From Methanosphaera sp. ISO3-F5 (GTDB lineage Archaea > Methanobacteriota > Methanobacteria > Methanobacteriales > Methanobacteriaceae), in assembly GCF_034480035.2 (NCBI RefSeq), contig NZ_CP118753.2:1-64000 (forward strand): a stretch of 64,000 nt of DNA. The letters run 5' to 3'. The notes under the pieces were generated by a model. It saw nothing but the letters and a program-made list of their open reading frames with translations, was not told the DNA's origin and did not search any database. Of this stretch, positions 55,801 through 58,575 are shown piece after piece (within the stretch, counting starts at the first letter, position 1; every line of letters begins with the position of its first letter). Made by a program: the position numbers and the translations under genes.

Positions 55801-55844
55801 GATAATCCTTCCCCCATAAAACTAATTTTTTTATAGTGATATCC

Positions 55845-56669
55845 ATGTTATCAAAGAGAATAATTCCCTGTCTTGACTGTGACTTACAAGTTCCAGAAGG
55901 ACGAGTAGTGAAAGGAGTGGAATTCAAACAAATCCGTTATGCAGGTAATCCAGTAGAACTTGCAACAAAATACTATGAACAAGGAGCAGATGAAATAGTA
56001 TTTCTAGACATCACAGCATCTCATGAAAGACGTTCAACAATGGCAGATGTAATCAACAAAACTGTTGAAAACGTGTTCTGTCCAATATGTGTCGGTGGAG
56101 GAATACGTGAAGTAGAAGATTATGTGAACATGTTAAAAGCAGGAGCAGATAAATGTTCCACAAACACGGCCGCAATAAAAGATCCATCCCTAATAAACAG
56201 AGCATCAGAACATGTGGGCAGTCAAGCATGCGTAATAGGTATAGATGCAAAAAGACGTTATGTCGAAAATCCGGACGAATCAGATGAACATTACATAGTC
56301 GAAACAGATAAGGGTTACTGTTGGTTTGACTGCAGCATATACGGTGGACGAGAATTCACAGGTATTGATGCAATCAAATGGGCAATAGAATGTGAAGAAA
56401 GGGGAGCTGGAGAAATACTGTTAACAAGCATGGACCGTGACGGAACAAAAGTTGGATATGACCTTGATTTAACACGTGCAATAAGTCGCAACGTGTCAAT
56501 ACCAGTAATAGCTTCAGGTGGTGTGGGAAATCCTGAACACATTTATGAAGCATTTAATAACGGGGAAGCAGATGCAGCACTGGCAGCAAGCATATTTCAC
56601 TTCGACGAATATCCAATCCCTGATGTAAAAAAATATCTTAAAGAAAAAAATATCCAAATACGAATATAA
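55845..56669 (+). CDS. hisF: Imidazole glycerol phosphate synthase cyclase subunit
   Basis: It closes the imidazole ring in histidine synthesis and releases AICAR. This TIM-barrel protein has the catalytic Asp in [11 protein letters not shown] at the N terminus and the second catalytic Asp in [12 protein letters not shown]. Phosphate-binding motifs are GGGIR and ASGGVG. It has 274 residues from ATG 55845, longer than typical HisF (about 250) because of an insert around residues 150-165. It is followed after 16 bases by the proteasome-like gene. Confidence 0.95.
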
Positions 56670-56685
56670 TGGAGCATAAGAGTAG

Positions 56686-57609
56686 ATGACACTAATAATA
56701 AACATAGTAACACCTGAAGGAATCATAATGGCCTCAGACAGCAGACAAAGTGAAAGAAACCTTAAACAATTCACAAGAATATCCACAAACTCTGCAAACA
56801 AAATATTCTCCTTAAATGATCAAGTTGTAGTTGGAACTGCAGGCCTAGCATTCTTCGCAGATAATACGGGAATTAGAAAAAATGTTTCAGAATATATTGA
56901 AAACTTCAAGAAAGAGAATAATCTACAAAATTTAACTGTTGATGAAATATCTGAAAGGTTACAGGAATACATTAACAAGCAATACCCTTGGGAAAAACAG
57001 TTAGACATATCTGCTCAGCAATTAGAGATAGAAGCAGAACGTAACGGGGAAAAAATATTGTCCCTGGAAAGAAAGGATGATTCTATTGACTTTAAGATTA
57101 AGCAACCATCCGGACGGATTAAGGAAGGACATTTAAATATAGAACCAGTAAATCTCCTAGTTAGTGGATACAACTCTGATGGGACATGTGAAACATATGA
57201 AATCAATTCTCCGGGAAAAAGAATTATTAAAAGAAGAAATAATGAATATGGGTGTACCTGGCTAGGACAGGGGGATGTGGTGTCACGATTAATTCTAGGA
57301 TATGATTCTAACCTCTTTAAAATTCCAACAATTAAAATGATGAACAAGAAATCCTCAGAAGACTTAAGATCACAGATACATGGACTAGAATACTATATTC
57401 AGTGGAGTCTATTAACACTGCAGGATGCAGCAGATTTAGCAGTGTTCCTAATTAAATCAACATCATTCATACAGAGATATGCGGATGGTATAAGCATGGA
57501 TATTGGGGATATACAGGGTGTTGGAGGACCAATAGATGTGGTTCTCATAACAAAAGATGGAATAAAATGGATTAATAAGAAAGAGGTTACTTTTTCAGAA
57601 GATATATAA
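56686..57609 (+). CDS. Proteasome-beta-like Ntn hydrolase
   Basis: It has 307 residues, not a standard proteasome subunit. After removal of the initiator Met the protein begins T-L-I-I-N-I-V, then PEGIIMASDSR. With that Thr as residue 1, Asp falls at 17 and Arg at 19, as in 20S beta subunits, and a Lys in ANKIFSL sits near the position of Lys33 with a short insert. The C-terminal IDVVLITKDGIKW resembles the IDVAVITRKDG end of archaeal beta. A central ~60-residue insert (residues ~95-150) is extra. It may be a self-processing or peptidase-type enzyme; the substrate is unknown. It lies between hisF and the glycosylase gene. Confidence 0.7.
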   Translation: MTLIINIVTPEGIIMASDSRQSERNLKQFTRISTNSANKIFSLNDQVVVGTAGLAFFADNTGIRKNVSEYIENFKKENNLQNLTVDEISERLQEYINKQYPWEKQLDISAQQLEIEAERNGEKILSLERKDDSIDFKIKQPSGRIKEGHLNIEPVNLLVSGYNSDGTCETYEINSPGKRIIKRRNNEYGCTWLGQGDVVSRLILGYDSNLFKIPTIKMMNKKSSEDLRSQIHGLEYYIQWSLLTLQDAADLAVFLIKSTSFIQRYADGISMDIGDIQGVGGPIDVVLITKDGIKWINKKEVTFSEDI

Positions 57610-57639
57610 CACAACATTACAACTACTTGGATGATATGT

Positions 57640-58575
57640 ATGAATTCAGGACAATTTATTATAGATAACAATGAATACATTGGAGACTTTGATTTGGACA
57701 TAACTATTAATTCCGGTCAAACAAGTCAACCTCCATGGACATTAGAGGATAATAAATACTATGAAATATTGGAGGTATATGACTCAAATGTTCTGGTAGG
57801 TGTTAGTCAGGATGGACTGAACAAAGATTTAATAGTTGATTATTATTCAGAGGATGATGTGGATATTGAAGATATAAGAAAAATAATATTCTACCTATTT
57901 GATTTAGACTATAATATAGGAGAAGTGTATGATTTTCTTAACGATAACAGGGAATTATCGGATGTTTATGAATTTAATAAGGGATTAAGATTATATAAAG
58001 CACAATATCCATATGAATGTATCATTTCCTCCATATGTTCTGCGAACAATTCTATAAAACGTTGGACTAAATCAATTAATGATATTAAAAAGGAATATGG
58101 TACAAAATTAAATTTCAATAATAAAGAGTATTACGTATTCCCCGAAGAATCAGTGTTTGTGAACATTCCAGATACTGATGATGGACTGAAGAAGTTTGGA
58201 GTAGGATACAGATCAAAATATATGATTAATTCAACCAAGATGATTCTGGATAATCCTGATTTTCATGATATTATCAACAAATCATCATATAATGAAGCAT
58301 TTGAAAAAATTTTAGAACTAGAAGGTGTAGGACCAAAAGTAGCAGACTGTATATTACTCTACGGTTATAATAAACATGAAGCATACCCCGTAGATGTATG
58401 GATTAACAGGATTACTTCTCATATTTATTTCCCTGACCAAAAACCATCAAATCAGAAGATAATGAGTTTTGCACAGGAAAAATTCGGAGAATATGCGGGT
58501 TATGTTCAGTTATACCTCTTTAATTATGCAAGATTAAGTGGGTTAACAGAAAAACTTAAAGCTAAAAAATCTTAA
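57640..58575 (+). CDS. OGG1-like 8-oxoguanine DNA glycosylase
   Basis: This HhH-GPD DNA-repair glycosylase/AP lyase has 311 residues from ATG 57640. The helix-hairpin-helix is LELEGVGPKVADCILLYGY, with the catalytic Lys in GPKVADC and the catalytic Asp in AYPVDVWINR. The N-terminal ~110 residues match the OGG1-type N-domain more than the short archaeal AGOG enzymes. It follows the Ntn-hydrolase gene by 30 bases. A purine-rich GGGAGGGGAG tract lies ~20 bases past its stop. Confidence 0.88.
   Translation: MNSGQFIIDNNEYIGDFDLDITINSGQTSQPPWTLEDNKYYEILEVYDSNVLVGVSQDGLNKDLIVDYYSEDDVDIEDIRKIIFYLFDLDYNIGEVYDFLNDNRELSDVYEFNKGLRLYKAQYPYECIISSICSANNSIKRWTKSINDIKKEYGTKLNFNNKEYYVFPEESVFVNIPDTDDGLKKFGVGYRSKYMINSTKMILDNPDFHDIINKSSYNEAFEKILELEGVGPKVADCILLYGYNKHEAYPVDVWINRITSHIYFPDQKPSNQKIMSFAQEKFGEYAGYVQLYLFNYARLSGLTEKLKAKKS

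Follow-up and report, generated by a model that had tools for sequence, protein, structure and literature searches.

Fuchs, Alva and Lupas described 22 uncharacterised proteasome-like subfamilies, several of which carry inserts at the pore-loop site and between helices H3 and H4 (Fuchs, Alva and Lupas 2021, PMC8665760). Inserts at these two sites were argued to hinder ring assembly and double-ring stacking, and no genomic context hinting at function was reported for the subfamilies (Fuchs et al. 2021, PMC8665760). In the PHI, PMI-3 and PMI-4 subfamilies, reported in Euryarchaeota, the pore-loop site that follows H1/H2 holds an insert, PMI-2 to PMI-6 have an insert between H3 and H4, and FC1-FC5 are clusters of proteasome-like proteins of Firmicutes (PMC8665760). 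Connectase is a ligase that lacks H1/H2 and has a two-helix insert between strands S3 and S4, and Anbu, HslV and BPH are proteasome-like proteins of bacteria that use the same chemistry at the active site (PMC8665760).

The DNA analysed here (the window) comprises the first 64,000 nucleotides of a contig of Methanosphaera sp. ISO3-F5, a methanogenic archaeon of the gut, the genome of which has 2.68 Mb in two contigs. It contains an open reading frame (ORF) for a proteasome-like Ntn hydrolase of 307 aa, with the following N-terminal and active-site positions:

56683-56685, forward strand: in-frame TAG codon directly before the ATG of the ORF, read from the sequence
56686-57609, forward strand: proteasome-like Ntn hydrolase, 307 aa, with ATG start and then ACA; T1 is residue 2 counting Met
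56689-56691, forward strand: Thr1 codon, predicted nucleophile, T or S in 44/44 relatives
56737-56739, forward strand: Asp17 codon (D18 with Met), invariant in the alignment of relatives
56800-56802, forward strand: codon of the Lys33 equivalent (K39 with Met, K38 from Thr1), invariant in the alignments
56842-56844, forward strand: Gly47 equivalent, oxyanion hole (G53 with Met, Gly52 from T1), kept in 42/44 relatives

A propeptide before Thr1 is excluded, because the in-frame TAG immediately precedes the ATG, and this arrangement supports the original prediction that none would be needed if Met aminopeptidase acts. The Met-Thr-Leu start is common to every Methanosphaera relative despite variable upstream sequence; a few of these have an in-frame start codon further upstream, and the residues there are not conserved. 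The protein has a 99.7% identical counterpart in a Methanosphaera MAG (locus L026).

Conservation of the active-site residues was counted over 44 relatives with three architectures. Residue 1 (T or S), D17 and the Lys33 equivalent do not vary among them (44/44, including the relative at locus L126, which begins MTSE), so that no homologue was found of the kind that the original prediction had named as evidence against itself, lacking T1, D17 and Lys. The equivalence of the Gly to Gly47 was deduced from the alignment, by the A-G-L motif. In a profile comparison (probability 64%, E 6.6e-5), D17 and K38 pair with E17 and K33 of the genome's own beta subunit, and in relatives of ~400 aa the Lys is at exactly position 33. 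Counting from Thr, the prediction had placed T1, D17 and R19 as in 20S beta subunits, with a Lys near the Lys33 position; all of these residues are present as stated, the aligned Lys being K38, but R19 had to be rejected as a diagnostic residue and carries no weight, since Lys, Ala or Val replaces it in the relatives. The positions of proteasome D166 and S169 are apparently not kept in the 307-aa protein, as judged by eye from the alignment.

The Pfam family PF00227 matches residues 4-100 (E 3.4e-8, 33.8 bits against a cut-off of 22.4), and 17 of the 27 members of the alignment match it at E <= 0.01. An AlphaFold2 model built from this alignment of 27 relatives (mean pLDDT 85.2, pTM 0.82) has the strand and helix order of the Ntn fold. 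Using the names of the 20S scheme, which were assigned in the present analysis, the core elements are S1 (3-8), S2 (13-18), S3 (40-42), S4 (47-53), H1 (67-77) and H2 (85-99), followed in the C-terminal half by core strands at 155-194 (S5 155-162), H3 (197-203), H4 (245-265), S10 (283-289) and S11 (292-297). The remaining structural features are:

56983-57144, forward strand: insert 1, residues ~100-153, between H2 and S5 (pore-loop site), from alignment and model
57295-57414, forward strand: insert 2, residues ~204-243, short helices between H3 and H4, from the AlphaFold2 model
57532-57576, forward strand: C-terminal strand pair S10-S11 with the conserved VGGPID...W motif, from alignment and model

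In the model, insert 1 forms a helix (102-119) and three strands (123-130, 133-139 and 145-151), and the short helices of insert 2 extend to residue 232. Foldseek returned 348 PDB matches at E<=1e-3, of which the best 50 are all proteasome chains (top E 6e-8); the TM-scores of the full-length model against solved proteasome chains are modest (TMq ~0.45, TMt 0.6-0.7), as expected because of the inserts. In a viral library the top match was to a 'proteasome beta type-2' protein of Siphoviridae (TMt 0.79), and phrog_5990, which is without assigned function, matches the C-terminal part of the protein (E 4e-10). A match to T4 endonuclease V (E 0.013) was dropped as chance, being a single-sequence match that is absent from the profile search and concerns a different fold. 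The ORF is thus confirmed as a proteasome-like Ntn hydrolase: the core of this fold, the absence of which would have counted against the original prediction, is present in the model. The further structural expectations also hold, namely a protein about 100 residues longer than a beta subunit (307 aa, against 206 aa for the genome's own), a large central insert, besides which there is a second one, and a matching C-terminal strand, in the segment GGPIDVVLITKDGIKWI.

The 307-aa protein is not a 20S subunit. Canonical alpha and beta subunits are encoded elsewhere in the same genome. PF00227 likewise matches one alpha and one beta subunit in each of 11 other genomes of the order, and among these a third match is found only in Methanosphaera. 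In addition, the protein scores 23.9 bits with TIGR03634, the equivalog model of the archaeal beta subunit, against a cut-off of 224. It shares with this subunit (PsmB) the fold, T1, the Lys33 position, the oxyanion Gly and the S10-S11 strand pair, but differs in having no propeptide, in the two inserts, in the apparent loss of D166/S169, and in being encoded beside a true beta subunit. With PHI, PMI-3 and PMI-4 it has in common the proteasome-like fold, T1/D17/K33, the lack of a propeptide and the pore-loop insert, and it also shows the H3/H4 insert of PMI-2 to PMI-6. Compared with the published descriptions, its architecture appears to fit PMI-3 or PMI-4, which have both inserts, or PHI, which has the one at the pore loop, but insert 1 of the 307-aa protein is made of a helix and strands. 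The proposal of a separate Ntn-hydrolase family stands in so far as the protein is distinct from the 20S subunits of its own genome, but it is only partly new, since insert-bearing proteins of this type are among the 22 subfamilies of Fuchs et al. 2021 (PMC8665760). As to the assembly of its own that the original prediction considered, both inserts lie where clashes with the assembly or stacking of rings are to be expected (Fuchs et al. 2021, PMC8665760). An Anbu-type C-terminal helix H5 is not seen after residue 297 of the model, in which the last five residues have low confidence, and the match to the PHROG 'HslV family' is weak (E 0.13).

The neighbours of the gene in the window are:

55836-56669, forward strand: hisF, co-directional upstream neighbour, 16-nt gap, named by resemblance only
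57631-58575, forward strand: ogg, 8-oxoguanine DNA glycosylase (OGG_N + HhH-GPD), co-directional downstream neighbour, 21-nt gap, named by family match

A first scan found the gene in 18 of 19 Methanosphaera genomes, the source genome included, the one without a match being 77% complete, and one more genome of the source's species, beyond that scan, also has it. Every Methanosphaera locus with enough flank presents the order hisF - gene - ogg in a single direction, with median gaps of 16 nt on the hisF side and ~30 nt on the ogg side, and this order stays while protein identity among the Methanosphaera copies drops to 42%. In most of the other Methanobacteriales examined hisF directly adjoins ogg without the gene, an arrangement read in ten loci. 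The simplest reading is an insertion between hisF and ogg in the Methanosphaera ancestor, the hisF-ogg pair being older than the arrival of the proteasome-like gene. A function in oxidative damage, suggested by the ogg neighbour, is for this reason a weak lead at most, and neither hisF nor ogg gives a clue to the substrate. The dN/dS of the gene (~0.04-0.055) lies between those of hisF and ogg, all of them rough values because dS is near saturation, and the gene is kept by the genus under strong purifying selection. In a phylogenetic tree, the Methanosphaera proteins form a clade (support 98/99), and these together with bacterial proteins of ~237 aa are separated from archaeal and phage proteins of ~270 and ~400 aa (100/99; unrooted, long branches). 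Searches of plasmids and with PADLOC gave no matches, and a viral scan gave none for the 307-aa protein and one distant contig (L099) for the bacterial version. The Methanosphaera gene represents a genus-fixed variant within a known superfamily, and what is new here includes its near genus-wide presence between hisF and ogg.

Taking together the predicted fold, the residues, the N terminus, the synteny and the selection, we consider it likely that the protein functions as a self-contained, active N-terminal-threonine hydrolase that is distinct from the 20S proteasome and devoted to dedicated substrates, and that it was gained in the Methanosphaera ancestor. Met aminopeptidase would take off Met1 and so expose Thr1, with no propeptide made or required, and Thr1 would attack a peptide (or amide) bond, aided by the Lys33 equivalent and Asp17, with Gly52 (T1 numbering) forming the oxyanion hole. 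The pore-loop and H3/H4 inserts probably limit access and replace or block ring stacking of the 20S type, so the protein would work as a monomer, or in an oligomer that is small or unusual, and would process one or a few dedicated substrates instead of degrading proteins in bulk. On this reading the gene entered the hisF-ogg pair in the ancestor and has been retained by the genus since. The apparent loss of D166 and S169, the modest full-length TM-scores and the lack of a clue to the substrate in hisF and ogg count against it.

The closest relatives of the 307-aa protein are sporadic bacterial proteins of ~237 aa, which begin with Met-Ser and lack insert 1 (residues ~100-153). They are rare among the sampled genomes (1/291 in one class, 8/350 in one family and 2/392 in another order, with the centre genome counted in each). 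By description only, the FC1-FC5 clusters (PMC8665760) are a candidate home for those of Clostridia; FC1-FC5 are, however, Firmicutes proteins, and the ~237-aa relatives, with their initial Ser, are found also in Chloroflexota. Three Clostridia loci, which were found without regard to gene context, show the order hsdR-hsdS-X-hsdM according to Pfam, X being the proteasome-like gene, and in a fourth the neighbours are homologous to those of the other three:

L033:1134-7210: type I restriction operon with embedded gene, Flavonifractor
L034:1002-7223: type I restriction operon with embedded gene, Flintibacter
L035:255-7210: type I restriction operon with embedded gene, Clostridia
L102:3887-10092: type I restriction operon with embedded gene, the fourth Clostridia locus

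The more distant relatives of ~270 and ~400 aa occur in Methanobacteriaceae of other genera, and two Methanosphaera (G006, G007) have them as additional copies. The profile of the ~400-aa proteins aligns over its full length with that of the 27-relative alignment (E 1.7e-25), and their model has a long helical H3/H4 insert and an all-helical pore-loop insert, in contrast to the helix and three strands of insert 1. The genes of the ~270-aa and ~400-aa relatives are often followed, in the same direction, by a small ORF (67-97 aa) and then by an ORF of ~83-109 aa. Such a small ORF with a ParE/RelE-type toxin-like ORF is found downstream in L106, L107, L108, L110, L111 and L112, and further in L113, L114, L116, L121 and L127, possibly as a three-gene toxin-antitoxin-protease module. 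A family scan of five of the downstream ORFs matched four to ParE-type toxin families above the cut-off. The number of PF05016 matches per genome is 0-6. Ten genomes have a match just downstream of the relative, and in G150, G154, G156 and G166 it is the sole match of the genome (in G156 and G109 the match scores below the curated cut-off). The crude chance expectation for such genomes is 0.03, against ten observed, an estimate that is descriptive only because the pattern was already known when the genomes were selected. Such a toxin is missing from about half of the ~400-aa loci.

These contexts bear on a different account of substrate and origin, compatible with the dedicated hydrolase proposed above, in which the proteins are a conflict-system protease family that cuts small antitoxin-like proteins or restriction subunits, the Methanosphaera copy being domesticated and having a single cellular partner. 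We regard this as possible, if somewhat short of an even prospect. It is favoured by the small ORF and ParE/RelE-type toxin that follow ~270-/~400-aa relatives in ten genomes (PF05016), by the four bacterial relatives between hsdS and hsdM, and by the ~400-aa relatives located terminally in streptococcal phages and satellites, where they are probably cargo genes. However, the Methanosphaera core copy has no adjacent toxin or restriction-modification gene, ten of the 14 bacterial loci read are outside restriction-modification operons, and co-location is no proof of cleavage. More tentatively, and on balance doubtfully, the whole lineage may consist of built-in conflict-system proteases, as a third component of ParE/RelE modules and an accessory of type I restriction, of which the Methanosphaera copy became a domesticated, genus-wide housekeeping version. 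If this were true, the protease of a ParE/RelE module would cut the small antitoxin-like partner encoded next door. The ten archaeal toxin contexts and four bacterial hsdS-X-hsdM contexts would give the first testable substrates, namely this small partner or a subunit of the restriction system. No published link between Ntn hydrolases and restriction or toxin-antitoxin systems turned up in the literature searched, a result that does not prove that none exists. The operon contexts of the relatives are the more surprising part of these results and make function testable, and the Methanosphaera copy offers a clean, propeptide-free, single-gene model for chemistry and assembly.

The fold shared with 20S beta subunits in the Foldseek comparison, and the presence of all of H1-H4 in the model, would also suit a closed proteasome- or HslV-like barrel of its own, acting as a general compartment protease; this is unlikely, since both inserts are at sites where they are argued to interfere with the assembly of rings and the stacking of double rings (Fuchs et al. 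2021, PMC8665760) and no AAA+ unfoldase gene is found among the flanking ORFs read around the gene. Less likely still is an Ntn amidase or a ligase instead of a protease. Ntn folds are versatile, and connectase, a proteasome-related archaeal protein that is likewise found in methanogens, is a ligase (PMC8665760), but the 307-aa protein has H1 and H2, both absent from connectase, and its insert follows H2 instead of separating S3 and S4: the model has no connectase-type helical insert between strands 40-42 and 47-53. An inactive, alpha-like role within the 20S proteasome, as a subunit for structure or regulation, might be suggested by its full fold and the 20S subunits in the same cell, but is highly improbable in view of T1, D17 and Lys in 44/44 relatives and Gly in 42/44, the lack of an alpha-type N-terminal helix and the position of the inserts at interfaces in the model.

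Some further loci of the relatives deserve mention. In the Streptococcus satellite phage Javan103 (L059:4335-5714) and phage Javan85 (L060:3017-4219), the ~400-aa gene is the last or next-to-last, and in Javan103 a 55-aa ORF follows it. By eye, PIN-like ORFs lie directly upstream of the ~400-aa gene in L115:5109-7023 and L126:1762-3440, with an AbrB-like ORF also upstream in L115, and the stretch L123:4590-5408, next to another ~400-aa relative, is masked (N). A proteasome-like gene near ogg is also present in two further genomes of the family, in one in the order hisF-ogg-103aa-gene-small ORF-toxin (L110:4108-7511) and in the other as a broken ~400-aa copy (L128:3902-7493), which suggests that insertion into the hisF/ogg region may have recurred.
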